Shown one piece after another: positions 2,873-23,813 of a DNA stretch of 36,919 nt. Origin of the DNA: Merdibacter massiliensis (GTDB lineage Bacteria; Bacillota_I; Bacilli_A; Erysipelotrichales; Erysipelotrichaceae); contig NZ_LT699723.1 of NCBI RefSeq assembly GCF_900155395.1, positions 1 through 36,919 on the forward strand. Reading direction: 5' to 3'. The notes under the pieces were generated by a model that ran no database searches, was not told the origin of the DNA, and saw only the letters and a list, made by a program, of their open reading frames with translations. Positions within the stretch are counted from its first letter, which is position 1; each line of letters opens with the position of its first letter. Made by a program: the position numbers and the translations under genes.

Positions 2873-4982
2873 TATTGATTTCCTCCATCTCTGTTTCTTC
2901 CTCAATATCCTTTTGTTCTTCTTGTGAATTATTCTGTTCTTCTAAAGACTCTATACTTTCTTCATTGATCTCTTGTCTTTCATTCGTACTATCTGACGCA
3001 TCTGGAGAATCTATATCTGATTCAATTGTCTGTACAGTTGAATTGCTATCACTTTCTATTTCATCTTCATTTGCATCATCTATGATATCTAGATCGAGAT
3101 CAGTCTCATCTTCCAACACGTTATCTGGAATATCACTTAAATTTTCTTCGGTATCTTCTTCTAATGAATCCATTTCTGATGGGATTGTCTCATCTGATTC
3201 TTTATCATCCAACTCAAAAGATTTGTCATATGTATTTCCCGAATCTGCTTCCTGTTCTCCTTGCAACATTTCTGCTTGCGTTACCATTTCTTCATCGTCA
3301 ATTTCTTCTGATAAATTTGAATCTGCATCATGATTTTGATCTTCTGCATTTTTAGCATTTTCTTCACTTTGACTTAATTCATCATCCAAAGCTGTAGATT
3401 CATCAAACAGCTTATTATCTTCGGCATTCTCTCCTGCTTCGTCTGCCGCATCTCCATCGTTCATTTCTTCATCATTAAAGATGTCATTATCTTGATCGGA
3501 AAGATCCTCTTGGTTTAAACTTTCTGACTCAGTTTCATCTAAATAATTACCATCCTCAGATACACTACTTTCTTCATTTGCAGAATCAATTGAAGTTTGA
3601 CTGTTCTTTCCAGATAGGTGAGAGAAAGATTGGCTAGGTGATTGACCAACTAATGCTGCCTGTAAAATTTCTCCAGATTCTCTTAATTTTGCTCCAATGG
3701 TACTGATATTTTTTGCTGCATAAATGCAAAGAACTAGAAGAAGAACATCGAATGCAATCATAAGCAATGGATGTATAGCAGAAACTTTCACGCATGCCTC
3801 CATCACAAAATACATTGCGATATTAAATAGCAAATCTACTCCAATCGATAATATGCTCCAGGTCATGCGATCTAAAAACCATTGCCTTGCTCGATGCGTT
3901 CTTCGAATCATCCACCATAGTAATTGATATACGCTTAAAAACATTAATAGAACTTTTAATAATTTAACTATACCAACTCCAATTGCTAAAATGGCAATTA
4001 CCAATCCAATCAAACCACGATGTACAAGACCCATGAATGAAAGAAATAAAACTTGCGAACAACTAGCGATATCATGAGAAATCGCTGTGTTATTAAAATC
4101 ATTTAATTCTATCCTTGCATTATTTTCCGTTGGATCATCTAATAGCGTTTGTACTCTAGTTTCTGCATCTTCCTTGCTTTGATTGGCAGATGCAGCAATC
4201 GCATCATAAGAGACAGTTCCAAAATGTCTTAACATAAATGGCTGCAGCTGCATAATTTCATATATATTTTCTTTATTAGCAATTTCCATATTCTCCGATT
4301 GACCATCGAAAACAAAAGTTTCGACCAGAACATCTTGCGCCAGGCTCTCCATAGAAAACATGATCTTTCTTCCATTTTGTCCAATAAAGATAATCAAAAA
4401 CATCGATAAAAAACCAGAAAGAATTACTTGCATGATTTGTTTGTATCCATGTAATTTAGTGAAATTTTTAATCAATTGATATAGGATACCGACCAAGGTA
4501 ACTAAAACGACTACTTTTATAATCCAAGAATTATAATCTGACCAATTAAAGACCACTGATTCTATAGATTTCAAAATCGTATCAACGACCGTCATCATAA
4601 ATGTACTGCTTACGAAGTTATACAGAACCATAACAAAGAATGTAATCACGCTTCCTAATAATTCCAACAACATTGTAATCACATTTAATAGTGTCATAAC
4701 AATTGTATGTGGTCGAAATAGATTCAACCCTTCCGTCATTACTGTTTGCGTAGAATTATAGAAATTACGCATATAATTTTCATTACTTTCCTGTGCAGCA
4801 GTATTTTCATCTAAACTGCCTAAAGCACCTGTTATAAAGTCACCATTTGAAGAAGTTCCCTGTTCTGAACGTAAAGTAGATTGTACTTTTATAAAATGAT
4901 CTGCTGCATCAACATGTACAGGCACACTTAATGCAAAAAGAATGCCAATCACAAGAAATATACGTTTTACTTTTATACTCAT
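2856..4982 (-). CDS. VirB6/TcpH-like polytopic channel protein with a long acidic tail
   Basis: A 708-aa protein. The signal peptide (MSIKVKRIFLVIGILFALSV...VDAA) is followed by several hydrophobic segments (about residues 95-205 and 310-430), the layout of Gram-positive VirB6/TrbL-like channel subunits. From about residue 455 to the end it is a low-complexity Asp/Glu/Ser/Asn tail of roughly 250 residues with almost no hydrophobic stretches. Similar tails occur in other Gram-positive VirB6 homologues, but this one is long and extremely acidic. The gene starts in an ATGA overlap with the VirB4 stop, and its own end overlaps the hydrolase gene. Confidence 0.85.
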   Translation of the reverse strand: MSIKVKRIFLVIGILFALSVPVHVDAADHFIKVQSTLRSEQGTSSNGDFITGALGSLDENTAAQESNENYMRNFYNSTQTVMTEGLNLFRPHTIVMTLLNVITMLLELLGSVITFFVMVLYNFVSSTFMMTVVDTILKSIESVVFNWSDYNSWIIKVVVLVTLVGILYQLIKNFTKLHGYKQIMQVILSGFLSMFLIIFIGQNGRKIMFSMESLAQDVLVETFVFDGQSENMEIANKENIYEIMQLQPFMLRHFGTVSYDAIAASANQSKEDAETRVQTLLDDPTENNARIELNDFNNTAISHDIASCSQVLFLSFMGLVHRGLIGLVIAILAIGVGIVKLLKVLLMFLSVYQLLWWMIRRTHRARQWFLDRMTWSILSIGVDLLFNIAMYFVMEACVKVSAIHPLLMIAFDVLLLVLCIYAAKNISTIGAKLRESGEILQAALVGQSPSQSFSHLSGKNSQTSIDSANEESSVSEDGNYLDETESESLNQEDLSDQDNDIFNDEEMNDGDAADEAGENAEDNKLFDESTALDDELSQSEENAKNAEDQNHDADSNLSEEIDDEEMVTQAEMLQGEQEADSGNTYDKSFELDDKESDETIPSEMDSLEEDTEENLSDIPDNVLEDETDLDLDIIDDANEDEIESDSNSTVQTIESDIDSPDASDSTNERQEINEESIESLEEQNNSQEEQKDIEEETEMEEINNEMDT

Positions 4983-7393
4983 GCCGGCTCATCTCCCACT
5001 ACAGCATGCTTTTGCTTGTTGTCTTTTTTCAATGTATAAAATGCTTTTGAGAACGTATTTAAAAATTTCAGTTTCGTCATACACTTTCTGTTATTGTAAT
5101 CAACGTATAGAAAATTGTACTTTTTTGTTTCACTGAGTCCTTCATCTTTTGTTCTATCCATCAACAATCCACTGAGAGCTGAATTACTTGTTAAATCAAA
5201 ATGTTTGAGAATTAATTCTATCTCTTGCTTGCTCTTCATGCTGCCTATGAAGAATTGTCCAGTATTGTTTATGATCGAATCCGGAAGATCGCTCCAATTT
5301 TGTAGTATGATCAGTAGATTCATCATTTCAGAACGAGCAATTAAATTATTATTAATCAATACATCGATTCCACCCGGTACAGTAGACCAAAGTTTGGCTT
5401 CATCAATTAATAAGGTTTTTGGTTTTCCTTTTTCCATTCGAATAAATCGATTCGTAATTTCTGTTGTTTTTCCAATGATCAACGCATAGATGCGATGTTC
5501 TAGATCTTCTTCATGATAAACATAGCCTCCTTGTTGAGAAAATACTGGCAATTTTGCAAAGGTAACAAGGTTATATGGACGATCCAAACGAAATACCGAA
5601 TCAACGTCTGTTGTTTCTTCTCCAAAGAATAATCGTGCCATTGGATCCTTTTTTAATGATTTAACATTGCTGGCTACTTCTGGATCAAGCTCCATTAAAT
5701 AGTCGATCAGATAGCTCATTGTAAACCTGTGGATCTTTCCATGTTTTTTTGCCAAACACATTTGGTCATATGCTTGATCTATCAATAGCAAATTCACTTT
5801 TTGATTGTGATTAACTGCCCTCGATAAATTCACGATATCGTTCTTCGCTAATGCTAATGCCTCCATCGAATCATCTGGATGCAAGAGAAAAGCATCAAAC
5901 ATGCCCGAAGGAGAATCTTTGTCACCAATGATCAGATGTGAAGCTATATCTCCATATCGATTTAATGTATTTATAAGTTCCATTCGATCCCCTTTAGGAT
6001 CGATGTTCAAAGTTTTATGTCCATAAAAGATCATAGATGTCATCACAAAGTTATTGGCGATTTGTGATTTCCCTGCTCCTGTTTCTCCTGCAAAGATCAT
6101 TGTAGACGAGGCACTTTTTGCATTTCCTTTTATCGGAGCCTCCACGTCTACAAGGATTGGAAGATCTGCAGGATTCGTGTAAGTAGCAATCGTTCCTCCT
6201 GACTCCTCTCCAATATATAAGCCACCAAAAAAATTAAAACTTGCGAAATACAAAACATCTGTCAAATTTAAGTAGTGAGGATAACAGCTATTATATGGAA
6301 AAAGATGACGTGCCAATCGTTCTTGTTCCCCGATTGCATAAGTTAATGGAACATGTTTTCCTTCAAACCGTTTACGCATACGATCCGTTCTTTTATTAAG
6401 CATCGATTCATTATCAGCTCTTAACCTAAATAACATTTGCCAGCGGAGCTTACTCTCTTCGATACTAGGATCAGCATTTTCTCCTATCTTTGCCAATTCG
6501 ATTGCCTTTTTTGCATCTACGTCTTGCCGATCCGAAAGATTATAATATCTTTTTGCACTTTTTCTGATATCCTCTCGTTTACTGGTCATATTTCTACGAA
6601 ATGCTTGCGTATGCTCTAAATCAAATTTCACAATGGTATCTACTGGATAGTCATACTCTTGTATCTTATTAACAACAGTATTTGCACTATTTACTTTCAC
6701 AGAAAGATATTCGATCCGTTCAGCAATCAATGTACGAGTATAAATCGAAGTAAATTGATCATCTCCTTTACTGATATATTCTTGCTGCAAATAAGTTGGT
6801 TGAGGCGTCGTGTAATACTCCTCTACTTTCTTTTCAGAATCAACTGGAAGCGCCAAATAATTATGAAATTCTTCAATATCTTGCTCTGTTAAACGATCTA
6901 CTGATAAATTTGATGCTAGTTTTTTATAAATTTGTTCATCTACAATCTCACATAAACTAGATGTACGATGATCCATCTTGATGTTTTGATGCTTTAATAG
7001 ATCTGCATAAAACCTTCTGCGTAATGGCTCTCTATTATCGGTAAATACTACACAGATTCGATAACGATAACGTATTTTCTCTTTCAACTGTTCGCTCACG
7101 TCTTTTAATACGCTTTTAGCCAATTTATTCATTTCTTGCCTTTGATTATCCTTGTAAAGTGATTTATATGTTTGTAATATTTCTTTCTTGCTCACCTTTT
7201 TAGGCAATATGTATATTGCCCCAGGCATATTGATTGCTAAAATTTTCTCCTTAAGAGTCTCAACCAATGTCTGCAATTGGGTATCACTAGCATATAAACT
7301 ATTAATTGGCTTTATCCAGTAGTAATACCCTACACAGTCTTCATGTGAGACGATGTTTCCTTCCCCATATGTGTATATTTTCTCCACAAACAT
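4979..7393 (-). CDS. VirB4-like conjugation ATPase (TcpF/ConE type)
   Basis: An 804-aa ATPase that should energise assembly or substrate passage of the type IV secretion channel. The Walker A motif GETGAGKS is at residues 436-443 and Walker B LLIDEAK at 661-667. An N-terminal half of about 400 residues has no transmembrane segment, as usual for VirB4. The ATG lies a few bases after GAGGGAG and 53 bases inside the end of the TcpE-like gene, so the two are translationally coupled. The frame is intact from end to end. Confidence 0.95.
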   Translation of the reverse strand: MFVEKIYTYGEGNIVSHEDCVGYYYWIKPINSLYASDTQLQTLVETLKEKILAINMPGAIYILPKKVSKKEILQTYKSLYKDNQRQEMNKLAKSVLKDVSEQLKEKIRYRYRICVVFTDNREPLRRRFYADLLKHQNIKMDHRTSSLCEIVDEQIYKKLASNLSVDRLTEQDIEEFHNYLALPVDSEKKVEEYYTTPQPTYLQQEYISKGDDQFTSIYTRTLIAERIEYLSVKVNSANTVVNKIQEYDYPVDTIVKFDLEHTQAFRRNMTSKREDIRKSAKRYYNLSDRQDVDAKKAIELAKIGENADPSIEESKLRWQMLFRLRADNESMLNKRTDRMRKRFEGKHVPLTYAIGEQERLARHLFPYNSCYPHYLNLTDVLYFASFNFFGGLYIGEESGGTIATYTNPADLPILVDVEAPIKGNAKSASSTMIFAGETGAGKSQIANNFVMTSMIFYGHKTLNIDPKGDRMELINTLNRYGDIASHLIIGDKDSPSGMFDAFLLHPDDSMEALALAKNDIVNLSRAVNHNQKVNLLLIDQAYDQMCLAKKHGKIHRFTMSYLIDYLMELDPEVASNVKSLKKDPMARLFFGEETTDVDSVFRLDRPYNLVTFAKLPVFSQQGGYVYHEEDLEHRIYALIIGKTTEITNRFIRMEKGKPKTLLIDEAKLWSTVPGGIDVLINNNLIARSEMMNLLIILQNWSDLPDSIINNTGQFFIGSMKSKQEIELILKHFDLTSNSALSGLLMDRTKDEGLSETKKYNFLYVDYNNRKCMTKLKFLNTFSKAFYTLKKDNKQKHAVVGDEPA

Positions 7394-8057: not shown

Positions 8058-8864
8058 TTAATATTCCTCCATGTCTAAAATTTTATTTGTTGCCTGATCA
8101 ATCCTAAATCGGATTGTTTGTCTTTGTTGTATTAAATCTGAACTGCTAACTAACACGCTTACATCCACGATATACTCGTCGTTATTTTCTCGAATACTTC
8201 CAAAATTTTCGATCTTAATAGTTGTTGTTGCATCTAGTGGATCCAACTCTGATGGATTATTCATCAACAATCTAGCCTGTGTATAATCGCTGGCATATGT
8301 TGTTAAAAATAACTGTATTGTTGTTTTTAATTCTTCTTTTTTTGAATCATCACATTCTGTTCCTTCTAAAGCGTGATCAACTGCATATGTTTTTTTTAAT
8401 TCATCACTCATACTTTGAGAATCTGTATAATTCATAGTTATTGGAGCGATTACTAAGTAACTTTCTCCATTACGAATAACTTTTAGTTTCACATTTGCAC
8501 CTAGATCTTGTGATTTTTCTTTGGTATCTACTTTTAAATTTATGTGCGCATAATAATTAAAAGCTTCATCTGATTGTTCAACACGATAAATGTCCGTGTT
8601 AGTTACTTTTGCCGATTGCACCTCTCCTAATCCATAATCTGCTTTCCAATTTCCATCCAATGCATTGCTGTTCAGATAAGCATTAGTGCTTTCATCTTGA
8701 GGAAATTGAAAATAATTAGATATGTATGAATCAACAAAAGAATAATCGTTGATAGCTAACGCATAGGGTGATTCTTTTGTGCTAATCAACAGACCTTTGA
8801 TTGAACCGATCACAACGATAAGTATTAAGCAATAATACAAAAAACCTTTTAATCGCTGTGTGAT
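8058..8864 (-). pseudogene. tcpC: tcpC, 3' part (267 codons), separated from its 5' part by an insertion sequence
   Basis: TcpC is the bitopic scaffold of Gram-positive conjugation channels. This part has the membrane segment (FLYYCLILIVVIGSIKGLL) followed by two extracytoplasmic NTF2-like domains, ending MEEY. The frame is open right up to the insertion sequence and has no proper start codon or binding site; TTG at 8840 is the first possible start and lies inside the membrane segment. Joined to 12099-12248 after removing the insertion and one copy of a 3-bp duplication, the frame reads through: ...KKMKRILI/TQRLKGFLYYCL..., 317 aa in total, a normal TcpC length. Confidence 0.88.
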
Positions 8865-8928
8865 ATGATCCCACTAAAGTGGACACACGAAATAAATAAA
8901 CGTGGTTCTATGGAGGTGGGATTTTTCT

Positions 8929-10592: not shown

Positions 10593-10650
10593 ATAGTTGA
10601 AAACAGGTAAGAATGAAGATGAATAACGATCTTATCAGGAGGAATTCGAC

Positions 10651-12583: not shown

Positions 12584-12602
12584 TGTACCAGTCTCTGGTA
12601 CA
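12584..12602 (+). repeat. 19-bp palindromic element, copy 1
   Basis: TGTACCAGTCTCTGGTACA: two 8-base inverted arms around TCT. It lies in the 50-base gap between the stop of the Ig-like membrane protein gene (12606) and the start of the next gene (12555). Confidence 0.95.
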
Positions 12603-12605
12603 TTT

Positions 12606-13421
12606 TTAATTAACCAACTCATACCCAACAGCAATACCATTTTCGTCCATAATTACCTTGCAGCTGTATGTCCCTGCTCCACTCTGCTTTCCGGCAGCCA
12701 TACAATCTGTTCTTGCATCTTCGAATCCATATCCTTGCGCAACATACCACTGTTTTTGAGTTATTATTGGCTGATTAGATGTACCAGTCTCTGGTACATT
12801 TTGAGAATCAGTTTCTTTTGATGAGTCACTTATTACCGTAGATCCTTCTTCCTTGTCTGAAGTTTCATTATTATTTTGTTTCTTCGCAATTACTATTAAC
12901 TTTAATGTTTTAACTGTCTTTAAATTGCTGCTATTTTTAACCGTATAAGTAATGGTATAAGTACCCACCTTATTCAAATCATAATTTCCGCTGATCGCTA
13001 CTTCTAACTCTCCATCATAGATATACACGGCTTTTTCAATGTACTCTTTTGGATCAAAAGGATCTCCTTCTGTTATTGTCACTTCTTCTTTTGCCAGTTT
13101 TAACAGTGGAGGCTTAACAGAAATAATCGTTATTTTTTTCATAAATTCCTTTTGTTCTCCATGCTCCCCAACAGCTATGTAAAGTAAATTTTTTTCTCCT
13201 GGCTGACTACTATCAATCGTGGGATATAAAATCTTCGCAGAGGAGGAAGATTTAACCAGATCAACCGGATCAATCTCCTTTCCTACTTTGAAGGTATTTT
13301 TATCGACAAAAGTTATGTTTAATTCATCTTTTGTCGGTTGTCGCAAAAGAAGATACCAAGTCAAAAGACTACATATTAATATGATTGCTGCAAAAAATAC
13401 TGCATATTGCTTTTTAGTCAT
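12606..13421 (-). CDS. Membrane-anchored Ig-like (DUF5011-type) surface protein
   Basis: A 271-aa protein. An N-terminal uncleaved anchor (YAVFFAAIILICSLLTWYLL) places the rest outside the cell. A bacterial Ig-like domain of DUF5011 type spans about residues 105-185 (EVTITEGDPFDPKEY... GTYTITYTVKNSS). A Ser/Glu/Asn-rich linker (about 190-225) follows, then a short C-terminal module (about 226-271) ending GIAVGYELVN with two Cys. The module resembles the C-terminus of the lipoprotein at 17454-18437. The ATG overlaps the stop of the adhesin gene (ATGACTAA), implying coupling. The linker contains the in-frame palindromic repeat at 12780-12798. Probably assists the adhesin or the mating channel. 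Confidence 0.75.
   Translation of the reverse strand: MTKKQYAVFFAAIILICSLLTWYLLLRQPTKDELNITFVDKNTFKVGKEIDPVDLVKSSSSAKILYPTIDSSQPGEKNLLYIAVGEHGEQKEFMKKITIISVKPPLLKLAKEEVTITEGDPFDPKEYIEKAVYIYDGELEVAISGNYDLNKVGTYTITYTVKNSSNLKTVKTLKLIVIAKKQNNNETSDKEEGSTVISDSSKETDSQNVPETGTSNQPIITQKQWYVAQGYGFEDARTDCMAAGKQSGAGTYSCKVIMDENGIAVGYELVN
12780..12798 (+). repeat. 19-bp palindromic element, copy 2 (inside a gene)
   Basis: Identical in sequence and orientation to the other copies, but inside the gene at 12606-13421, where it encodes VPETGT of the low-complexity linker. Confidence 0.95.
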
Positions 13422-16400
13422 GGGTTTCACGACGGCGATACATAATTAGCGCTGCCAATAATGCTCCTGTACCAAGGAATACCCAGAATGTTGTTGTATT
13501 TGTTGTTCCAGTACCACCACTTTCTGGTAGTGGCATATCTGGATAAATGATTACACGTGTATGATCACTGGAGATCCAATTCTCATCTATAGTAACTTCA
13601 ACGACCTCATCACTTAATTGATATCCAATAGGAGCTCCAGTTTCTTTAATATAAACTGTACTTCCATACTCAATTCCATCAAACCTCGCTATTCCATCTT
13701 TTCCGCCTTTCTGCACGTCAATAACCTTAGTACAGTCTTTATCTGCATACATTGTAAATTCAGCGAATGGTAAGGCTCTAGCTTGGTCATAATAATCAAC
13801 TTTCAATATATCAATATGATATTTTGCTAAATCATCCTTCATCTGAATCTTCTGAACTTCACTTGTATCCGATATTGTAAACTGGATGTCTTTTGCAATT
13901 TCATATCCAAGTGGTGCTTCTACCTCTACCAAGCGATATGTATCTCCAACTACCAGTTTTTCTACAATGTGTGCTGTACCATCTGAGATCCATTCATCTA
14001 CAATATTGTTATGAGCATCTACTATCTGCAGATGAGCCCCTATCAGTTCTTTTTCACCTGTAATATCTGTTTTAGTTATTTGTACTTGTGTTCGTTCATT
14101 TTGAAACTCAAATGCAAATTCTTGTACAGACTGATTTTGATCTGTATATTTTGAATCGAACAAATGGCGAATAGTTCCACCACTTACATATCCTTGTGGT
14201 GCTTTTGTTTCCTGAACATACCACAATGAGTTCAGATTACCTTCATAGCGGATTCCATCATCATACATAACACCAAACGCATCATCTTCTAATGGATCAA
14301 CAGCATATTCTGGTGTTAGATCCATTGGCAGATCTACATCGAATACTGCTTCTCCATTTTCATTAGTAATGGCTGTTGCTACTAAATCATTTGGCTCTAA
14401 GATTACTTCGCCATCATAGTTATATACTTTTCTATTTGCATATAAGCTGATTTCTGCACCTTGCAGCTTTTCTTTTGTTTCTGCATCTAACTTAGTAGCA
14501 GTTACAGATACTTTTTGACGATCATTCAGATAGGTTTGAAGATCACTGAATACTACAGGCGTAGTTTGATCTTTGTAAGTTAATTCGACATATTTCACTT
14601 CATTAGTTAATACATAGCCATTCGGCGCTTGAATTTCATGAATCATATATTTGCCCAATGGAAGTTCTTTTGAAAGAACCTTGCCATCTGATCCAGTCGT
14701 AACGGTATCGACAATCGTTCCTGCTGAATATAAAACTGTACCATCGTTCGATGGATCAAGAATATCTTCGCTGGCGATGATATTTGCAGTCATTCCCTCA
14801 ATACCACGTTCCTCGTAAATAAATTGACCATCTTTATAGTCCGTTAATACTTCACCACGTTTTTCAATCTGAATCTGTCCTTTGACTGCTTGATCGCTCA
14901 TTTTTACTGTGATCAAAGGAGTTGTTCCATCTGGTAAGGTTTCATAAGCGGTATTCATTGTGATTTTAAACTTCACTGGCTCTGTATTTAGCACATAGCC
15001 ATTCGGTGCTTTGACTTCTTCTAATTGGTATTCTCCCGGATCAAGAACATCACCAGTCATTACCACTCCATCTTCTGATGTTGTCCACTGATCCACATAA
15101 TGAGGTAATGGAGTCCATTCCCAATATCCGACATATTCATTTGTAGTCAGATTTTTAATCTTAAAGGATGCTCCTTCAAGTTGAATTGTTTTGCCTGTAT
15201 CTGCATCTAATTTTACGATTTCAATTACTGCACGGAATTTTTCATCATTCAGTATTCTCCATGCCTGCGGATCTCTGCTATCCTCATCGATCACTACCGT
15301 AAAATCGTCAACAGCATAATGATCAGCTGGCACTTTTGTTTCTCGCACAACATATGTTCCATAAGGCAATTCATCCGATACGGCATATCCTTTTGAATCC
15401 GTTACTAATATGGATGCTTCTTTTCCTTGAGCGTTCTTTGCAATTGGTGCATCTTCCCAGCTACCATATTGATCGATATCTTTTTGTGCTTTAATTGTAA
15501 ATTCAACACCTTTTAAAATATCAGCTTCCCCACTGCCATTGTCTGAAACTTTGATGATCTGAAATGCCTGTGATTTTACTTTTTCTTTTACAATCTGATT
15601 GACCGTTACAGTTGCTGTCGTTTGTCCTTGATAAGATAAAACGACATCATACTCTGTTTCATCCAATGTATATCCTTCACTGGCTTCGATTTCTTTTAAG
15701 TAATATTTTCCTAAGTATAGATCTGAAATACTTGCTTTGTGTTGATTGTTGATCGTTAATTCAGAAACGAGTTCATCTGCATTGTAAATAACAGAATGAT
15801 CCGCTGGATCTAATATATTCTCTCTTGCATATAGTCCATACTTTGCACCGACAAGTGTTCCCTCTCCTTGTGCAGTATTACCAGTAATACTATCCTTTTT
15901 TTCAATATTGATTGTTCCTCGTACTCGTTCATCTACACCATTGACTTCGATCTTTTGTTCATTTTCAGTAATTGTTACTGGATATTTCGTATCATTCAAA
16001 ATATAGCCATCTGGTGCGATTACTTCTTTTACATAATAGTCGCCAAAACGAAGATAATCACTGGATGCATATCCATTGGCTAAAGTAGTGATTCTAGCAA
16101 CCTCTTGATTCGTATTTGCATTGTAGATAGCATATACTGCACCAGCTACTTGCTTTCCAGATTCTTTGTCCGTTTTGCGGATCAACACTTTTCCTTTTTT
16201 CCAATTGTTCTGTGCAGTAAAGGATGCTGTTTGATTCGCTTGTACGGTTACTTGATGAATGGTAGAATCTAGCACCAAATGATCAGGGACAGCTGTTTCC
16301 TGCACATAATAGGTTGCCGGCAGCAGATCATTGATCGTTACTGTTCCATCATTTCCTGTTGTATAAGTGCCGATCGGATTGCTCATATCATTATTTGCAG

Positions 16401-17274
16401 AAACCTTAAAAGAAGTATTCGGAACAAGTGTTCCATCTTCATCCTGTTTTGCAATCTTTAAAGATCCATATTTATTTACTGTGATATTGATATTGAAACT
16501 TCTTGGATCTTCTTGTTTAAATACAGCTACATTTTGTGAGATTGACGAAGAATATAACAAAGATGTACCAACATAATTATCTTTTACTAATTGATACGAT
16601 ACAGTTGCGTTTTCTGGCGCAGCTGCGGTGGCAGTGATCGTTAACTTATTTCCAGATTTTGAAACAGTGATTCCACTGCTTTTAGTATCAAGGTAATAAT
16701 TACTGAATACTCCATTTGTATCTGTTAATGTTATACTTTCTCCTACATTCAAAGTTAGATTTTGATTTCTAAAAGATGGATACGAATAAAATAGTTTATT
16801 CACCTTATCTTGAATAGATTTCTTTTTCGCAGTATAGCCAGTATATGAAGTGCTATTGATCTTTGTTCCTAATGTTTCCCAAATCATCAGCTGGGTAGCA
16901 ACATAATCTTCATCTGTTTTACCAGATAATTCCCATCCTACATAAGCAATTTGTTCTAATAATCTTCTTTGTGCAGCTGAGGTACTTGTATAACTTGAAG
17001 ATGAATAATTAGCACCTGTCTGTACTACCACTTCTGGTTGAACACAAAACGCTATTTCTCCATCTGCATAAATATGCTGGAAATTAGCTCCCCAAGCGGA
17101 ATATCCATTCGCACTTGTTACATTGTAAGAATAGTTAATTGCATTTTTTACTGTTACTGAACCAGTCGCTGCTTTTATAGTTGTGAAATCAAAATTTCCT
17201 ATTGCTATAATCATCGCCATCATTGTCACAACAAAACGATATATATTTCTTTTCGCTTTTTTTAATATTTTCAC
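13414..17274 (-). CDS. Thioester-domain adhesin with nine Cna-B/SpaA-type repeats and an LPxTG-type anchor
   Basis: A 1286-aa wall-anchored surface protein. After the signal peptide (hydrophobic core near residues 13-28, ending KAAT) comes a thioester domain: FCVQPE (Cys77) and TQLMIWETLG (Gln128), the pair that forms a Cys-Gln thioester in TED adhesins and can bind target amines covalently. Nine Cna-B/SpaA-type domains follow, each ending in a motif like YYVKEVIAPDGY or YQLEEVKAPNGY; these often carry stabilising isopeptide bonds. The end is LPESGGTG, a hydrophobic segment and RRRETHD, a sortase signal. The start is GTG with AAAGGAGG 8 bases upstream. It lies in line with the conjugation genes. 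Confidence 0.93.
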   Translation of the reverse strand: MKILKKAKRNIYRFVVTMMAMIIAIGNFDFTTIKAATGSVTVKNAINYSYNVTSANGYSAWGANFQHIYADGEIAFCVQPEVVVQTGANYSSSSYTSTSAAQRRLLEQIAYVGWELSGKTDEDYVATQLMIWETLGTKINSTSYTGYTAKKKSIQDKVNKLFYSYPSFRNQNLTLNVGESITLTDTNGVFSNYYLDTKSSGITVSKSGNKLTITATAAAPENATVSYQLVKDNYVGTSLLYSSSISQNVAVFKQEDPRSFNINITVNKYGSLKIAKQDEDGTLVPNTSFKVSANNDMSNPIGTYTTGNDGTVTINDLLPATYYVQETAVPDHLVLDSTIHQVTVQANQTASFTAQNNWKKGKVLIRKTDKESGKQVAGAVYAIYNANTNQEVARITTLANGYASSDYLRFGDYYVKEVIAPDGYILNDTKYPVTITENEQKIEVNGVDERVRGTINIEKKDSITGNTAQGEGTLVGAKYGLYARENILDPADHSVIYNADELVSELTINNQHKASISDLYLGKYYLKEIEASEGYTLDETEYDVVLSYQGQTTATVTVNQIVKEKVKSQAFQIIKVSDNGSGEADILKGVEFTIKAQKDIDQYGSWEDAPIAKNAQGKEASILVTDSKGYAVSDELPYGTYVVRETKVPADHYAVDDFTVVIDEDSRDPQAWRILNDEKFRAVIEIVKLDADTGKTIQLEGASFKIKNLTTNEYVGYWEWTPLPHYVDQWTTSEDGVVMTGDVLDPGEYQLEEVKAPNGYVLNTEPVKFKITMNTAYETLPDGTTPLITVKMSDQAVKGQIQIEKRGEVLTDYKDGQFIYEERGIEGMTANIIASEDILDPSNDGTVLYSAGTIVDTVTTGSDGKVLSKELPLGKYMIHEIQAPNGYVLTNEVKYVELTYKDQTTPVVFSDLQTYLNDRQKVSVTATKLDAETKEKLQGAEISLYANRKVYNYDGEVILEPNDLVATAITNENGEAVFDVDLPMDLTPEYAVDPLEDDAFGVMYDDGIRYEGNLNSLWYVQETKAPQGYVSGGTIRHLFDSKYTDQNQSVQEFAFEFQNERTQVQITKTDITGEKELIGAHLQIVDAHNNIVDEWISDGTAHIVEKLVVGDTYRLVEVEAPLGYEIAKDIQFTISDTSEVQKIQMKDDLAKYHIDILKVDYYDQARALPFAEFTMYADKDCTKVIDVQKGGKDGIARFDGIEYGSTVYIKETGAPIGYQLSDEVVEVTIDENWISSDHTRVIIYPDMPLPESGGTGTTNTTTFWVFLGTGALLAALIMYRRRETHD

Positions 17275-17344
17275 AAACTTTTCCTCCTTTTTGTATTGCA
17301 TTCAATTCATACACTAATGGTGGATCCCGTAACCTATAATTCAT
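17189..17344 (-). CDS. Possible 51-aa leader ORF overlapping the adhesin start
   Basis: GAAAGGAG followed 7 bases later by ATG opens a 51-codon frame (MNYRLRDPPLVYELNAIQKG...) that runs over the adhesin's ribosome binding site and first 29 codons in another frame. The product looks like no known protein. The strong binding site, placed right after the leader hairpin, suggests a translated leader that couples to or tunes adhesin translation. It could also be accidental. Confidence 0.35.
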   Translation of the reverse strand: MNYRLRDPPLVYELNAIQKGGKVCENIKKSEKKYISFCCDNDGDDYSNRKF

Positions 17345-17363
17345 ATTTGTGCTCCTTTCCAAT

Positions 17364-17389
17364 AAAAAAGGGAGCAATTTTTACTCCCT
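17364..17389 (-). terminator. Leader hairpin/terminator directly before the adhesin gene
   Basis: On the minus strand AGGGAG and CTCCC flank a 9-base loop and are followed by TTTTTT. Only about 90 bases separate it from the adhesin start and I see no promoter in between, so adhesin transcription must pass through it. Confidence 0.65.
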
Positions 17390-17390
17390 A

Positions 17391-17420
17391 AAAATAAAAG
17401 GTAGATCACTCTACCTTTTA
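17391..17420 (-). terminator. Terminator after the Ig-like lipoprotein gene
   Basis: On the minus strand AAAGGTAGA and TCTACCTTT form a 9-bp stem with a 4-base loop, followed by TATTTTT. It lies 34 bases after the lipoprotein stop and just before the second hairpin at 17364-17389. Confidence 0.75.
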
Positions 17421-17453
17421 CCACTGCTATTCACCTAAAATGTCAAATATTTT

Positions 17454-18437
17454 TTAAAAATCCCAATCGGGTGCTTGTCCTTCATAATTAAATCCTACGG
17501 TATATCCTACGATATTATCACAAGTATCTACAACTGGACCTACTGAATATGATACTATATTATCTGGTCCATTTTCCTCATTATCTTTAATGTAGGATTT
17601 TGCCCAAGCATGGGCTTCTTCTTTGGTGGTAAACATCATTCCACTATTATCATACTGATTTGATGGAACAGTACATGCTGGTTTATTTGAGCCACTTCCA
17701 GAGGAAGATCCCGAATTGCTAGAAGAACTACTAGATGATGATTGATTACCATTGCTTGAAGATGGTTTTTTATTCGTGCTGCTGGATAAATTTCCAGAAG
17801 ATGTACTGCTTGAATTAGTAGATCCGCTTGAAGATGAATTACTATTGGATGTAGTTGTACTTTCCTCTTTTGGTTTGGATTTTACTGTAATTGTGCAGTC
17901 TTTCTCTGTTTTATTTCCGTTTGCATCCTCTGCAATTACCTTAACTTTGTAATCGCCTGCTTTCTTCGTATTGATTTCCCCATCCACACTGATCGTTACG
18001 TCTGCAAGATCGGTTGCTGAAAAGAGATCTGCAAGATCTTTAGAATAGCCATAATCAATAGATACATTATCTTTGAAATCTTTAAATTCGGGTGCAACTG
18101 TGTCCTTGACTTCTACAGATAGCTGTAATGGCTTTTTATCATCTGCATAATCAATTTCCAGTTTGTATTTACCAACCGCTAATGGCTGTTCTTCAGTAAT
18201 GCTATCAGCATCTATTTTTTCATCCTCATTTGATAGTAAAGATAAAGAAAATTGATATTCACTTTTAATAGAATCATAATTCTCTAATAAACTCTTTAAT
18301 TGTATGTCTGTATATGGATCTTGCCCATATTCTAATGTTAGTGATTCTTCTTTAAGTGCTGGTACATTTGTAGCACTGCAAGCTGCCAAGCCGATCAAGC
18401 TAATCCCACACAATATATTGACCAAAATCTTCTTCAT
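17454..18437 (-). CDS. Lipoprotein with an Ig-like (DUF5011-type) domain and Ser-rich stalk
   Basis: A 327-aa protein with lipobox LIGLAAC, so it is lipid-anchored outside the membrane. Residues about 25-120 form one beta-rich domain. A DUF5011-type Ig-like domain follows (VAPEFKDFKDNVSIDYGYSK... GDYKVKVIAEDANGN). Next is a long Ser/Asn/Gly stalk (about 190-255), then a C-terminal module (FTTKEEAHAWAKSYI ... CDNIVGYTVGFNYEG). The C-terminal module resembles the end of the protein at 12606-13421. The start is set at MKKILVN, which has GGAGG upstream. First gene of the surface operon, behind a regulated promoter and hairpin leader. Confidence 0.78.
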   Translation of the reverse strand: MKKILVNILCGISLIGLAACSATNVPALKEESLTLEYGQDPYTDIQLKSLLENYDSIKSEYQFSLSLLSNEDEKIDADSITEEQPLAVGKYKLEIDYADDKKPLQLSVEVKDTVAPEFKDFKDNVSIDYGYSKDLADLFSATDLADVTISVDGEINTKKAGDYKVKVIAEDANGNKTEKDCTITVKSKPKEESTTTSNSNSSSSGSTNSSSTSSGNLSSSTNKKPSSSNGNQSSSSSSSSNSGSSSGSGSNKPACTVPSNQYDNSGMMFTTKEEAHAWAKSYIKDNEENGPDNIVSYSVGPVVDTCDNIVGYTVGFNYEGQAPDWDF

Positions 18438-18465
18438 ATTCTTTCCTCCATCTTTCATTTTCTAC

Positions 18466-18496
18466 TAAAAAAGGCGACTACTTTCAGTCACCTTTT
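18466..18496 (-). terminator. Leader terminator between promoter and lipoprotein gene
   Basis: On the minus strand AAAAGGTGACT and AGTCGCCTTTT form an 11-bp stem (one G-T pair) with a 6-base loop, followed by TTTT. It sits after the promoter at 18548-18575 and only about 30 bases before the start codon, the layout of a transcription attenuator. Confidence 0.7.
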
Positions 18497-18510
18497 ATAC
18501 AATTTCTATG

Positions 18511-18541
18511 GATGAGATCAATCAATTACATTGATTTCATC
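18511..18541 (-). promoter_or_regulatory. Inverted repeat at the predicted transcription start
   Basis: GATGAGATCAAT and ATTGATTTCATC are 12-base arms with one mismatch and a 7-base spacer. It lies just downstream of the -10 box and upstream of the leader terminator. It could be an operator, or in RNA a competing hairpin. Confidence 0.5.
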
Positions 18542-18547
18542 ATACAT

Positions 18548-18593
18548 ATTATAGCATAAAAAATTGACATGTAAAGTGACATAAAACTGACAT
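18548..18593 (-). promoter_or_regulatory. Promoter of the surface operon with three direct repeats
   Basis: On the minus strand TTTACA (18570-18575), a 16-base spacer and TATAAT (18548-18553). ATGTCA is repeated three times at about one helical turn (18565-18570, 18577-18582, 18588-18593), overlapping and upstream of the -35 region. Phased direct repeats at this place are typical of activator sites. Confidence 0.65.
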
Positions 18594-18775
18594 ATTTATG
18601 GATATTATCGTCTTTTTGATAGAAATATATATTCTTTTTTATCTTTTTTGTAACTAATTTCATTTTTTTAATCAATATTGTCACCCCTTGACAAAGAAAA
18701 ATTATTATAATTTTTTCAGAATATTTTAATTTTTTCTCTCTTTTGATTAATTATAGCAGATTTTTAATCTTTTTT
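18594..18775. other. Gene-free AT-rich spacer
   Basis: About 180 very AT-rich bases between the surface-operon promoter and the sigma-like gene, with no convincing open frame. A minus-strand TATAAT (18762-18767) lies next to the palindrome at 18776, but no good -35 box accompanies it. Confidence 0.5.
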
Positions 18776-18794
18776 TGTACCAGTCTCTGGTACA
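18776..18794 (+). repeat. 19-bp palindromic element, copy 3
   Basis: Exact copy, 5 bases beyond the stop codon of the sigma-like gene (18800). Confidence 0.95.
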
Positions 18795-18799
18795 TTTTT

Positions 18800-19225
18800 T
18801 TATTTTTTGATAGCTATACCATAAACAATGGCAAAATTAATATGCATTCGATTTAATCTGCGAAAGATATGTCTATCTGAATTACCAATCTTTTTTGCTA
18901 TCTCCGCAATTGTCAATCCCTCCACGTATCTGAGGTTGATCAATTCTATTTCTGAAAAATCTAAACGATTTATACATATCTGTATCTTATTCAAATACGA
19001 ACGAATTTCTTCATAATTCCTATCTTTTTGTTCAATTTTTTTTAACAAAGCTGCATCTGCATTTACATATGCACTAAATGATAATGTTTGAATAGATCTA
19101 CTCTGCAGATCAATATCAATTAATGCGTGATTAACAATGTTTAGAAGTCTGGAATATTCATGTAACACACGCTTTGCTACCTCAATCGTTCTTTTTTTAT
19201 CTATTTGATCAAAGTATCCGATCAA
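18800..19225 (-). CDS. Sigma-region-4-like helix-turn-helix regulator
   Basis: A 141-aa soluble protein. The C-terminal third (LINLRYVEGLTIAEIAKKIGNSDRHIFRRLNRM) is a helix-turn-helix of sigma-70 region 4 / ArpU-like type; the rest is helical. The start is set at TTG (19223-19225), with AAAGGAG 8 bases upstream. A longer frame to 19297 would have to translate through the palindromic repeat at 19258-19276. It follows parA-parB and directly precedes the promoter with direct repeats, so it is the obvious candidate regulator of the surface and transfer operons. That link is inference. Confidence 0.7.
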   Translation of the reverse strand: MIGYFDQIDKKRTIEVAKRVLHEYSRLLNIVNHALIDIDLQSRSIQTLSFSAYVNADAALLKKIEQKDRNYEEIRSYLNKIQICINRLDFSEIELINLRYVEGLTIAEIAKKIGNSDRHIFRRLNRMHINFAIVYGIAIKK

Positions 19226-19257
19226 ATAAATCACTCCTTTCGTTACTTTCCGATATA

Positions 19258-19276
19258 TGTACCAGTCTCTGGTACA
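19258..19276 (+). repeat. 19-bp palindromic element, copy 4
   Basis: Exact copy in the gap between the parB stop (19282) and the start of the sigma-like gene (19225). Confidence 0.95.
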
Positions 19277-19281
19277 ATTAT

Positions 19282-20229
19282 TTATTCTATATTCCAAAGT
19301 TCAAACAAAGATAATAGCTGTTTGATGGCAATCTCCACCGCTTTTTGATCTTCAACAAATTGCATATTCTCTAACCGCTTGCTGAGTTTTTTCACTTCAT
19401 TAACAGCTCTCTTCACCAACATTATCCTAAGTTCTTGTTCCTGCTGTTCTTCATTTTGCATATCCTCGTATTCATCCTCAATTTCAATTGGATCTTCTTC
19501 TACGACTAACTCATCATCTTCATTAAAATATTGCTGTTTCATCACTGTATCTTTGAATACATCCACTTCTTTACGACTAAATGTTTCCGCTGTTTCTAGA
19601 AATTCATTTTGATCTTCTTCGCTCAAATCTACCAGTGCAGCTGCTGCATCAATAGAAATTGCATCATCCCGAATCTTTTCCCGGACTTCTTCCGTTGCAT
19701 GATTTAATACTTTTTCATAATTAGCAACCTGCGACTTTTTAATCCCCATTTCGTCCGCAATCAGCTCCTGAATGCGTCCAGGTATTTTTTCACCAGCAGC
19801 TTTTTTCGCCCGATAAATCTCTCTGAGTTCCTCTACAGCCTCCAATTTTTCTGCAGCAGTTAGTGGATCGTTCTCATGATTGTTGAGAATCAACCGCCGA
19901 CGGGCATCCAAATCACTTAATCTCACTTTTTTACATGGGATATACTCGTAAGTCAAATCACCATGTTCAATGTTATAGAGGATTGCTGAGTATCGACGTT
20001 CTCCTCCAATCAATTCTACCTCATACTGTTCATCCTCAATCTCCCTTACCAAAAGATTATTCTCCAAACCATCTTCACGAATGTCCTCAGCAAGCTCTTC
20101 AATACGTCGTAGCTTTCGATTTTTGTTTGGTCTTCGGATCTTTGTATAGTGAATATTGACTATCTGATTGTCAAATGCAACCTTCTTTGCATCAAAATTC
20201 AGAAAATCGCCTAAAATGCTCTTTCCCAT
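19282..20229 (-). CDS. parB: ParB-family partition protein
   Basis: A 315-aa centromere-binding protein. The N-terminal ParB/Srx domain has IGGERRYSAI (residues about 73-83), the CTP-binding box of ParB proteins. A helix-turn-helix region follows (IADEMGIKKSQVANYEKVLN, about 160-180). After an acidic linker (about 235-260) a short C-terminal helical region probably dimerises. It should load on a specific DNA site and work with ParA to hold or partition the element, for example in a replicating excised form. The gene starts 2 bases after the parA stop. The exact repeats at 19258 and 20981 bracket parAB. Confidence 0.93.
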   Translation of the reverse strand: MGKSILGDFLNFDAKKVAFDNQIVNIHYTKIRRPNKNRKLRRIEELAEDIREDGLENNLLVREIEDEQYEVELIGGERRYSAILYNIEHGDLTYEYIPCKKVRLSDLDARRRLILNNHENDPLTAAEKLEAVEELREIYRAKKAAGEKIPGRIQELIADEMGIKKSQVANYEKVLNHATEEVREKIRDDAISIDAAAALVDLSEEDQNEFLETAETFSRKEVDVFKDTVMKQQYFNEDDELVVEEDPIEIEDEYEDMQNEEQQEQELRIMLVKRAVNEVKKLSKRLENMQFVEDQKAVEIAIKQLLSLFELWNIE

Positions 20230-20230
20230 A

Positions 20231-20953
20231 TTAGATCACCTCCAACAATTCCTGTGCAACCACTGCATAATCTACGGCTGCCTTTGCACGAGGATAACGA
20301 TAACTGATCGGTGCACGATATTTCCGTGATCTCTTGATTGGCAGATAACAGTAACGAATCACTCGTTGAAAAGATACCGGTGCCAACTGTTTTTGTAATT
20401 CCTGTAATCCTTTCTGTGTTTCTTTAGATCGGTCAACCTTTGTATATAAGATTCGAAATTTTGTCTGAGAGAATAGTTGTGTGATCTCATTGATCGTCGT
20501 TATTGTTCCACGAATCGAATCATCATTGATCTCTGTCGGTATGATAACCAAATCATGTGCCCTCATAATCTCCGCAATTAGCTTATTAAAATACGGTGAG
20601 GTATCTATCAGTATGTAATCATATTGTTCCTTCAGTTGAGCCAGCTGTTTTACAAATATATTATCTTCAATTTCTTCATTTGCTAAGTAATCATTGCCTG
20701 GAATTATATCCAATCCAGAAAATCGTGTATGATAAACGCAATGCCATACATTCTCATGTTTCAGCATGCCCAGAATACTCTTCTTATAATTCTTTCCACT
20801 CAAGCCTTCTGTGGCATTTCGCTGTGGATCGCCATCAATCAATAATACTAATTTACCCATTTTGCTTAATTCATAAGCTAAGTTTTTTGCTGTGGTTGTT
20901 TTTCCGGATCCTCCTTTACGATTTCCGATTACAATTACCTTTCCTTTTCTCAT
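20231..20953 (-). CDS. parA: ParA-family partition ATPase
   Basis: A 240-aa ATPase. The deviant Walker A motif NRKGGSGKTTTAKNLA is near residues 11-26, the A' motif LLIDGDPQRNAT follows, and Walker B is YILIDTSPYFNK. It is a small-type ParA without an N-terminal DNA-binding domain. With ParB it should drive segregation of the element. The ATG follows AAGGAGAAAGAGT. A copy of the 19-bp palindrome is centred about 37 bases upstream of the start, where a centromere or operator is commonly found in par loci. Confidence 0.95.
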   Translation of the reverse strand: MRKGKVIVIGNRKGGSGKTTTAKNLAYELSKMGKLVLLIDGDPQRNATEGLSGKNYKKSILGMLKHENVWHCVYHTRFSGLDIIPGNDYLANEEIEDNIFVKQLAQLKEQYDYILIDTSPYFNKLIAEIMRAHDLVIIPTEINDDSIRGTITTINEITQLFSQTKFRILYTKVDRSKETQKGLQELQKQLAPVSFQRVIRYCYLPIKRSRKYRAPISYRYPRAKAAVDYAVVAQELLEVI

Positions 20954-20980
20954 ACTCTTTCTCCTTCAATTTCTCCATTT

Positions 20981-20999
20981 TGTACCAGTCTCTGGTACA
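20981..20999 (+). repeat. 19-bp palindromic element, copy 5
   Basis: Exact copy in the short gap between the stop of the upstream small gene (21002) and the parA start (20953). Confidence 0.95.
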
Positions 21000-21001
21000 T
21001 T

Positions 21002-21166
21002 TCATTTTTTTGCGATCATCTCAATAAATTGAATTTTTTTCTTACTCCCTGCTTTAGGGGAGTTCTTCACCTTCCCTATATCTACGAGAACATATCTTTC
21101 TCTTAAATATGCAATTAATTTTTCTCGATCCTCTTCGCTAAAATATTCAATTTTAATCGTGATCAT
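21002..21166 (-). CDS. Hypothetical 54-aa basic protein upstream of parA
   Basis: No family is recognised. The sequence begins MITIKIEYFSEEDREKLIAY and ends with a Lys-rich tail. The start at 21166 follows GGAAAGGAAG; another ATG at 21172 is possible. It overlaps the end of the winged-helix gene and has no membrane segment. It may be a small DNA-binding or regulatory protein of the partition region. Confidence 0.55.
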   Translation of the reverse strand: MITIKIEYFSEEDREKLIAYLRERYVLVDIGKVKNSPKAGSKKKIQFIEMIAKK

Positions 21167-21413
21167 ATTCATCTTCCTTTCCAATTCTCCTTTTTTGTTG
21201 ATGTTGCAAAACAATTAGTTGTCTAACAGTTCCTAATGTTGTTATCCTGTATTTTCTTTCGATCTTGCCCGATTTTGCTAAACGACGAATCATTACGGAT
21301 ATAGATTTAGGCTGTAACTGAATTAATTCGGAGATCTCTTTATTTGTCATCTCAAAATTATCTGATTTGCAAATCATATCTAATAACATTTCTTCATAAA
21401 GTGACTTTCTCAT
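21153..21413 (-). CDS. Small winged-helix DNA-binding protein
   Basis: An 86-aa protein. Residues 22-60 (MTNKEISELIQLQPKSISVM-IRRLAKSGKIERKY) form a MarR/IclR-like winged helix-turn-helix: two short helices, a recognition helix and a wing. It has no ligand or sensor domain, so it is probably an element-specific repressor or accessory replication/partition factor. The start codon at 21413 follows a purine-rich stretch (AGAAAAGGAGAATG). It overlaps the next small gene. Confidence 0.72.
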   Translation of the reverse strand: MRKSLYEEMLLDMICKSDNFEMTNKEISELIQLQPKSISVMIRRLAKSGKIERKYRITTLGTVRQLIVLQHQQKRRIGKEDEYDHD

Positions 21414-21804: not shown

Positions 21805-23325
21805 CTAGTTTTTGGCAACAGCCCCCATCCGAACTAAATAATCTAATGCCGTATAAGCGATTTTCAGCCATTTTGCGAGCCGTTGCTGTACTTGATAGAT
21901 TGTCTTACGTCTAAATTCTTCCGAGCTTATAGCGTCCTCTATCGCATCCATATAGTCTTTTAATTTTCTAGTAAACTGCCAAGCATGCTCTTTGATATAT
22001 TTCAAATCCTTCGTTACTGTTGATCGATGTACTCCCAAGATATCGGCGATCCGTGAATTAGACAAATGCTGGACATTTTTTAACTCACATACTCGAGTCC
22101 TTCTCTCTAAGATACGTTGTTGCTTCTCCGTTCGGTTAAGCAATAAAATTTTACGTTTTCTTCTTGCATAAGCAGCTTTTTTTAATGCCTTTCTCTTTAA
22201 TACTCTCATATGTAGCTGTTCTTCCGCTGTAATCTCTAGATGTTCAATTATTGTATCTATATTACAACCAGATCGATTAGACGAAGGACGACACTGATTC
22301 TCTACTTGTTCTTTGGTTAAAGGAGAATGAAATTGTTCATTTAATTTATTAGCTAACTGTACACTTTCACTCACAGAATATCCAAGCCATGTAGCTTTTT
22401 CTCTAGCAATCCAAAGTAATGTTTCCCTGTATCCTTCATATTGCTGCTTCTTATTTCTTAATTCAATCAGTGTTTGAAAATCTTTATAATATCCCTCAAA
22501 ATAAGGACGACGTTTTGATAGATCCCAATCCACTTTCTTCTTTTGTTTTTTTTCTGTTTTTTTATATTTATTCACTTCATCCATTGTCCATGGAAGTTGA
22601 TCAGCAAATTGCTGTAATGTATATTGAGTTTCATTCAGCTCTAACACCTGTACAGTTCGCCCTGTTTTTGAATTAATTGTGCCTGGTAGTCTAATTACTT
22701 GTGTTGTATTTAGAGCTCGTGGATCCATACCATACTTCTCAAATTTCTTTAAAAAAGATTTCATGACCGCATGATAAAGACGATTCATGTGATATGAGCA
22801 ATGTTTAAAACAATAAATCACATACAATCCTCTACCACTATCTACTAATGCTGTAGGTTTCACTGATAATTTTCTTTTTATGTACTTATTGTAGAAATCA
22901 ATCGGCTGTAAATCTGCATACTTATCGATCTTGTAGAAATCAAAATCCAAGCAGAACGCATTGATATGTCGAACTTCTTCTGATTTTTTCTTTTTTCTAT
23001 AAAAACTATTAAGTGAAAAATATACATCTTTCTCTCCTAGCAAACTATAACAACTTTTTTTAAAATCGTTTATCAAGAATAAGCGATCATAAAAATTCGT
23101 TACACGGTCTGCCAAATACCTTACACGGTATTCTTGTAATAAATAAGTAACCTCATCATTCGAAATATCTAACGCTTTTGCAATTTCCTTTTCTGGAAGA
23201 GCGGATGCATATAGATCGAATACTCTATCGCCAAACTTCATTGATGTAGATTTCCAGTCTGTTAATAAAGCTGCATAACATGATTGATCACCGCCATCGT
23301 GAATCTTTGATATTAAATTATTCAT
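21805..23325 (-). CDS. Primase-like replication protein with a C-terminal helix-turn-helix
   Basis: A 506-aa protein. Residues about 115-225 show archaeo-eukaryotic primase (prim-pol) features: the acidic pair in AFCLDFDFYKID and the motif LVDSGRGLYVIYCF, followed by TTQVIRLPGTINSKTGR. This resembles primase/replication proteins of plasmids and phages. A helical region follows, then a helix-turn-helix (LSNSRIADILGVHRSTVTKDLKYI, about 420-445). It probably starts or primes replication of the element. The start at 23325 has GGAG 9-10 bases upstream; an ATG at 23331 is also possible. It overlaps the end of the ribbon-helix-helix gene. Confidence 0.75.
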   Translation of the reverse strand: MNNLISKIHDGGDQSCYAALLTDWKSTSMKFGDRVFDLYASALPEKEIAKALDISNDEVTYLLQEYRVRYLADRVTNFYDRLFLINDFKKSCYSLLGEKDVYFSLNSFYRKKKKSEEVRHINAFCLDFDFYKIDKYADLQPIDFYNKYIKRKLSVKPTALVDSGRGLYVIYCFKHCSYHMNRLYHAVMKSFLKKFEKYGMDPRALNTTQVIRLPGTINSKTGRTVQVLELNETQYTLQQFADQLPWTMDEVNKYKKTEKKQKKKVDWDLSKRRPYFEGYYKDFQTLIELRNKKQQYEGYRETLLWIAREKATWLGYSVSESVQLANKLNEQFHSPLTKEQVENQCRPSSNRSGCNIDTIIEHLEITAEEQLHMRVLKRKALKKAAYARRKRKILLLNRTEKQQRILERRTRVCELKNVQHLSNSRIADILGVHRSTVTKDLKYIKEHAWQFTRKLKDYMDAIEDAISSEEFRRKTIYQVQQRLAKWLKIAYTALDYLVRMGAVAKN

Positions 23326-23629
23326 TATCATTTTCTCCAGATTCTATTTCCGGAATAAATTCACTGATCAATCCTTCTTTATGAAGTTCTTTCAAAATAA
23401 GTGCTGCTTGTTCTAGCAAAGCCGTCTGACGATTAATTTGTTGTAAATCAAGTCTCTGTTTTGGTGACATATCGTACACGAACTTCAATTGCGGATGACT
23501 AGCAATATTCAACGAAAGATTTCTTAACAGAGTTGCTGCTTTCTTACAATGCACTTGTTCTTGAAATTGTTTTATCATGTCGTATTCTTCTTCACTAAAC
23601 CTAACATTTACTGCATAATTCCGTCTCAT
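23318..23629 (-). CDS. Ribbon-helix-helix (MobC/CopG-like) DNA-binding protein
   Basis: A 103-aa protein. The N-terminus (MRRNYAVNVRFSEEEYDMIK) has the beta strand plus helix pattern of ribbon-helix-helix proteins, followed by HCKKAATLLRNLSLN, as in MobC-like mobilisation accessory proteins. The C-terminal half is helical and acidic. The start is set at MRRN, which has GGGAGG 7 bases upstream; the open frame upstream to 23737 crosses a terminator hairpin. First gene of the element next to the tRNA, transcribed away from it. It could regulate its own operon or act at oriT. Confidence 0.75.
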   Translation of the reverse strand: MRRNYAVNVRFSEEEYDMIKQFQEQVHCKKAATLLRNLSLNIASHPQLKFVYDMSPKQRLDLQQINRQTALLEQAALILKELHKEGLISEFIPEIESGENDNE

Positions 23630-23738: not shown

Positions 23739-23813
23739 TGGTACCGCGTACGGGACTCGAACCCGTGATACAGCCTTGAGAGGGCTGTGGCTTAACCGCT
23801 TGCCGAACGCGGC
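23739..23813 (-). tRNA. tRNA-Glu (anticodon CUC)
   Basis: A 75-base cloverleaf including the encoded CCA: acceptor stem GCCGCGT/ACGCGGT, D arm GGC...GCC, anticodon stem CAGCC/GGCTG with loop CTCTCAA (anticodon CTC), and T arm ACGGG-TTCGAGT-CCCGT. It reads GAG. Its 3' end is exactly where chromosomal genes stop and the conjugative element begins, making it the likely integration site. Confidence 0.95.

Follow-up and report, generated by a model that had tools for sequence, protein, structure and literature searches.

Dispersed binding sites for ParB-like proteins have been described in several mobile elements. The phage-plasmid N15 has dispersed centromeres. KorB of RK2, a clamp of the ParB family, acts at long range from several short palindromic operators (O_B) scattered over one mobile replicon (PMC11790492). 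In the chromosomal Spo0J system, spo0J itself carries a site, as does the parB of phages described below. BisD, the ParB of ICEclc, is encoded after parA, has a small partner, BisC, and activates transfer genes (PMC7423338), and the SGI1 island is reported to carry parS-like sites and to use the ParB of its helper (PMC10954446). Here we analyze a stretch of 36,919 nucleotides of the Merdibacter massiliensis genome (contig NZ_LT699723.1, positions 1 to 36,919; hereafter, the window), in which an integrated conjugative element encodes ParA and ParB and contains five exact copies of the 19-bp palindrome TGTACCAGTCTCTGGTACA. Comparison with related elements suggests that these palindromes are very probably dispersed parS-like sites of the element's own ParABS system, serving its segregation.

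The locus resembles each of these systems in part. With KorB/O_B it has in common the ParB-family protein and the dispersed short palindromes; it differs in the operator, the O_B letters not being matched, and in its occurrence in Gram-positive conjugative elements and phages, and no KorA-like gene is seen in the par operon of the window. As in ICEclc (PMC7423338; PMC12704722), a ParB-like protein is encoded after parA and is followed by a small regulator; however, BisC is FlhC-like whereas the protein in the window resembles sigma-70 region 4 and ArpU and is a candidate regulator. The Spo0J/ParB-parS and Noc-NBS systems show the same protein fold with a helix-turn-helix (HTH) and symmetric sites, but the Spo0J parS is a 16-bp sequence, TGTTTCACGTGAAACA, whereas here two hexamers are spaced by 7 (or 5) bp and have element-specific letters. 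N15 likewise has parS sites scattered over a mobile element, but with a ParB of another clade and other sites. The same differences apply to SGI1, where the sites are reported to be served by the helper's ParB (PMC10954446). The host parS, TGTTTCACGTGAAACA, differs from the element sites and is located apart from them, on contig 21. As originally described, the palindrome is unlike the Spo0J site and the KorB operator. No published description of this site family was found in the literature searched, subscription journals being outside its coverage.

Five identical palindromes in the window

The five copies are as follows.

12584..12602, + strand: site 1, TGTACCAGTCTCTGGTACA, in the gap between a 274-aa Ig-like open reading frame (ORF) and a 108-aa ORF
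12780..12798, + strand: site 2, TGTACCAGTCTCTGGTACA, in frame within the ORF at 12606-13430, where the minus strand reads VPETGT
18776..18794, + strand: site 3, TGTACCAGTCTCTGGTACA, downstream of the sigma-like gene and upstream of a lipoprotein gene
19258..19276, + strand: site 4, TGTACCAGTCTCTGGTACA, between the parB stop codon and the ribosome-binding site (RBS) and start of the sigma-like gene
20981..20999, + strand: site 5, TGTACCAGTCTCTGGTACA, immediately upstream of parA

All five are exact, as originally reported, and no copy arose by chance in 100 shuffles. The sequence is confined to the element: it is found nowhere else in the 2.47-Mb, 23-contig M. massiliensis genome, in agreement with the claim that the chromosomal part lacks it, and its palindrome was not detected in any of 145 relatives scanned with a free spacer. 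Four copies (12584, 18776, 19258 and 20981) are wholly non-coding, as had been noted, although non-coding DNA accounts for 5.4% of positions (binomial p=4e-5). Each of these four follows, at 2-5 nt, the stop codon of the minus-strand gene on its right, and three of them are 25-32 nt ahead of the next start codon; the copies at 20981 and 19258 indeed bracket parA-parB. The remaining copy, site 2, falls in the linker of the 274-aa Ig-like protein. The single orientation that had been claimed is seen in the window (5/5 copies) but is not a general property, given that both centre orientations are found in related elements; because TGTACCAGTCTCTGGTACA is symmetric apart from positions 9/11 and the centre base, the description of the site as oriented comes down to one base pair.

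The par operon and related conjugative elements

The genes around sites 3 to 5 include the proposed binder of the palindromes and the two proteins that had been named as alternatives.

19282..20229, minus strand: parB, 315 aa, proposed binder; PF02195 (ParB_N) 8.6e-8, PF17762 (ParB HTH) 5.4e-6
20231..20953, minus strand: parA, 240-aa Walker ATPase; AAA_31 6.5e-37, motif NRKGGSGKTTT, phrog_164 ParA-like
18800..19225, minus strand: sigma-70 region-4/ArpU-like regulator gene after parB; phage_arpU 6.5e-8 (below cut-off), phrog_248; the TTG start at 19225 was picked from its RBS
21153..21413, minus strand: small winged-helix protein

A ParA-type Walker ATPase is thus encoded adjacent to a protein that combines a ParB_N/CTPase-type fold with an HTH DNA-binding domain, and the palindromes near parAB are likely to be the cognate sites of a ParABS system, judging from their co-occurrence with ParB and their position in ParB-bearing elements. 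The structural model of ParB (mean pLDDT 78.5) has Noc as its best match (Z 15.6, 3.4 A over 194 residues) and also matches ParB-CTP and KorB (KorB Z 14.2); Z for the Noc-NBS DNA-binding domain is 12.0, and the Spo0J-parS DNA-binding domain is matched too. Among the CTP-binding motifs, GGERRYSA is present in the window ParB and GHRR or GETR in its relatives, and the third motif has diverged.

Full-length relatives of this ParB are encoded in 3 of the 316 genomes of the order (identity 31-47%), and all three ParB-bearing elements contain palindromes of the same family along with further homologues of window-element genes, the co-occurrence that the original prediction proposed to examine. Scans of broad collections with the window ParB yielded no relatives beyond these three, and none in IMG/VR. 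The element of Breznakia pachnodae (ParB 47%) contains 14 copies of TGTGCC(N7)GGCACA within 31 kb, with no such sequence outside the element in the rest of the 4.3 Mb. The draft genomes G223 and G220 (ParB 32-33%) have the TGTCCC..GGGACA form, TGTCCCGGTSACCGGGACA, with one copy beside the par operon in G223 and a degenerate copy at that place in G220. The build TGTnCC-N7-GGn'ACA is kept throughout, and one symmetric letter differs between elements.

The placement of the sites is conserved in two gene gaps although their letters have changed. The gap downstream of the sigma-like gene holds a site in the window, in Breznakia (C7:29132) and in G223 (C18:1830), and a degenerate one in G220 (C109:1519); the gap beside the Ig-like gene holds a site in the window, in genome G224 (TGTCCCGGTCACCGGGACA) and in Breznakia (TGTGCCGGTGACCGGCACA, at the edge of the gene). 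In G224, a 73%-identical ParA is encoded at the end of a contig other than that of the site, and therefore parB there was probably just cut off at the contig end. Matches of the TGTTCC..GGAACA type in G158, G215 and G216 lie in or beside chromosomal genes and were dismissed as chance.

These comparisons bear on two explanations that involve no DNA-binding protein of the element. The palindromes might act as RNA, in the form of hairpins or of bidirectional or antisense terminators after stop codons: TGTACCAGTCTCTGGTACA folds to an 8-bp hairpin, and the copies at 12584, 18776, 19258 and 20981 have terminator-like scores on the + strand, the antisense strand of the operon. The genes and the T-run are, however, on opposite strands, and many copies in the related elements are inside coding sequence and in both centre orientations. 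In Breznakia, moreover, the outer six arm positions are invariant, but several copies (ACTCACC, GTTGACC) have mismatches in the inner two pairs, a pattern of half-sites rather than of a stem. A role as RNA is extremely unlikely. The least likely of the explanations considered is the spread through the element of a small mobile repeat resembling repetitive extragenic palindromes or miniature inverted-repeat transposable elements. The copies are identical, short and mostly intergenic, as such a repeat would be, but there are none on host chromosomes, no flank is conserved, the set of letters tracks the element and placement is kept between elements while letters change.

Phage relatives and the probable reader of the site

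A pattern scan of IMG/VR with the Breznakia version retrieved one phage (the identical contigs L074 and L076) with three TGTGCC..GGCACA copies. This phage encodes parA-parB; two of its sites are inside parB and the third is downstream of a sigma-like gene. Two other kinds of match were set aside as chance, namely L075 (one site only, in a phage gene of structural type) and the TGTACC..GGTACA matches in IMG/VR, which are single copies with random centres. Searching phages with the L074 ParB led to the Flavonifractor phage Cormatin and two gut phages, whose recurrent palindromes are GTGTCC-N5-GGACAC (four copies), the same (four copies) and GTGCCC-N5-GGGCAC (two copies), respectively. A second ParB clade, which searches with ParB alone uncovered, comprises 13 phage contigs, these three (L098-L100) and ten more (L102-L111), all of which (13/13) have a GTGYCC-N5-GGRCAC site inside parB and most of which have more copies elsewhere. 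In L097, GTGTCGGCCGCCGACAC occurs twice within parB. On the ParB tree, the N7 and N5 site types are separated with two changes. An unbiased count of recurrent palindromes gave 5, 14, 3, 4, 4, 3, 6 and 5 copies; shuffles gave a mean of ~1.1 and a maximum of 2, and 28 control viral loci had 1-2 copies.

When 21 proteins of the window element were compared with 15 phage loci, relatives were found for ParA and ParB only. ParB is the only DNA-binding protein common to every element with multiple sites, and the initial preference for it as the binder is supported by this comparison: because ParA and ParB alone are shared with the phages, the winged-helix protein has no relatives, the sigma-like protein has none by sequence in the second-clade phages, and the model matches Noc, ParB and KorB, ParB is by association the likely reader of the palindromes. 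The winged-helix regulator, proposed as an alternative, lacks relatives both in the other conjugative elements and in phages; neither it nor the sigma-like protein is shared by all the site-bearing elements, and both were rejected as common binders. The idea that the palindromes are bound instead by the sigma-70 region-4/ArpU-like protein, as a controller of late or transfer genes, draws on the site directly downstream of its gene in the window, Breznakia, G223, G220 (degenerate) and the L073/L074 phages. An operator of the ArpU/RinA type would be found only with the sigma-like gene, but sites are present in phages without a detectable relative of it, the 13 second-clade contigs, where no sequence relative was identified. 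In addition, between elements with a single-letter difference in their sites, its recognition region is poorly conserved but most of the ParB stretch SQVxxYxxV is retained, and a symmetric dyad is not an expected target of region-4 proteins; binding by the sigma-like protein is accordingly very improbable.

Several observations weigh against a ParABS assignment. The window ParB, whose N-terminus is MGKSILGDFLNF, lacks the canonical ParA-binding motif LG[KR]GL. A motif of this kind, (L/F/I)G(K/R)G(L/F/I), is common but is not required of all ParBs. G220 has one good and one degenerate copy only. Palindromes without this ParB, which would be common if the two were unrelated, are limited among the 316 genomes to two exceptions. 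G051 has a lone site, TGTCCCGGTCTCCGGGACA (L089, C53:3290-3308), on a fragment of 3.9 kb that carries element surface genes, and in this 98%-complete draft no ParA, ParB or Rep close to this family and no further part of the element was found. G105, from another family of the order, has an orphan TGTACCAGTCAGTGGTACA (L091, C72, 2343-2361), which lies 45 bp ahead of a gene for an Ig-like surface protein, and this ParB was not detected there. No recurrent palindrome was seen in the region of the C. difficile plasmid pCd5_2 that encodes a 40% identical ParB segment. Furthermore, L102-L111 were fetched with peptide patterns that overlap the site-bearing stretch of parB, so the parB-internal copy in these contigs is not wholly independent, and the phage loci are partly redundant, several of L102-L111 being near-identical.

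Under the parS reading, a ParB dimer would recognize the half-sites TGTACC...GGTACA through its HTH, and each bound site would serve to load CTP-bound ParB clamps, which would slide onto adjacent DNA of the element. ParA would then move the ParB-coated element, excised or replicating, at cell division, and the element-specific spelling (A, G or C at half-site position 4) would cause ParB to ignore the host Spo0J parS and the sites of relatives. A parS function fits because ParA is encoded beside ParB, there are several sites per element, some sites lie in parB and sites are tolerated in coding sequence.

Alternatively, ParB could bind the sites mainly to control genes of the element in the manner of KorB or BisD, a sliding clamp, perhaps with the sigma-like partner, repressing or activating the transfer and surface operons. 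The gene order parA-parB-sigma-like recurs in four conjugative elements and one phage, the sites are spread through operons, mostly just before a start codon, and there are precedents in the activation of transfer genes by BisD (PMC7423338) and in long-range action of KorB from dispersed operators (PMC11790492). However, ParA is always encoded with ParB, which fits segregation; the gaps within operons leave no room for a promoter between the site and the following start codon, which is 25-32 nt away; the phage copies fall in coding sequence of structural genes and parB; and the sigma-like partner has no relative in the second-clade phage contigs. Gene control as the main role is therefore possible but unlikely. 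As a side role of parS-like sites it is likely enough to keep open, because the sigma-like gene follows parB and both KorB and BisD also regulate. A broader scheme, in which the parA-parB-sigma-like operon segregates the element and also exerts element-wide control, its clamps and sigma-like partner switching the operons for transfer and surface genes, and in which single-letter changes provide a private address, appears distinctly doubtful.

The comparison pairs ParB proteins of conjugative elements and of phages with likely DNA addresses that differ by single letters or by spacing, making ParB-parS specificity and the incompatibility of mobile elements that share a cell directly testable. 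It also suggests active segregation of these integrated elements when excised.

Other genes of the element

The conjugative element in which the par region sits adjoins a tRNA-Glu gene and encodes VirB4- and TcpC-type proteins. Its further genes considered here are the following.

4979..7393, minus strand: VirB4-type conjugation ATPase; AAA_10 5.6e-21
8058..8840, minus strand: TcpC conjugation protein; PF12642 3e-12
12606..13430, minus strand: Ig-like surface protein ORF, 274 aa, holding site 2
17454..18458, minus strand: Ig-like lipoprotein gene beside site 3
21805..23331, minus strand: replication-type protein, function by inspection, only weak HTH-type family matches

The tRNA-Glu gene (23739-23813) marks the edge of the element; a second copy of a 24-nt stretch of this gene was sought in the draft genome and not found. 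The replication-type protein is common to the related conjugative elements (54%, 53% and 38% identity). Between tcpC and the 108-aa gene, the region 8902-11865 contains IS3-type orfAB-like genes and an IS256/mutator-type transposase (by inspection), which are insertions because tcpC and the 108-aa gene are neighbours in G224. A surface protein of 1295 aa, with a thioester domain and nine repeats of SpaA type, is encoded at 13414-17301 and is conserved in the related elements.
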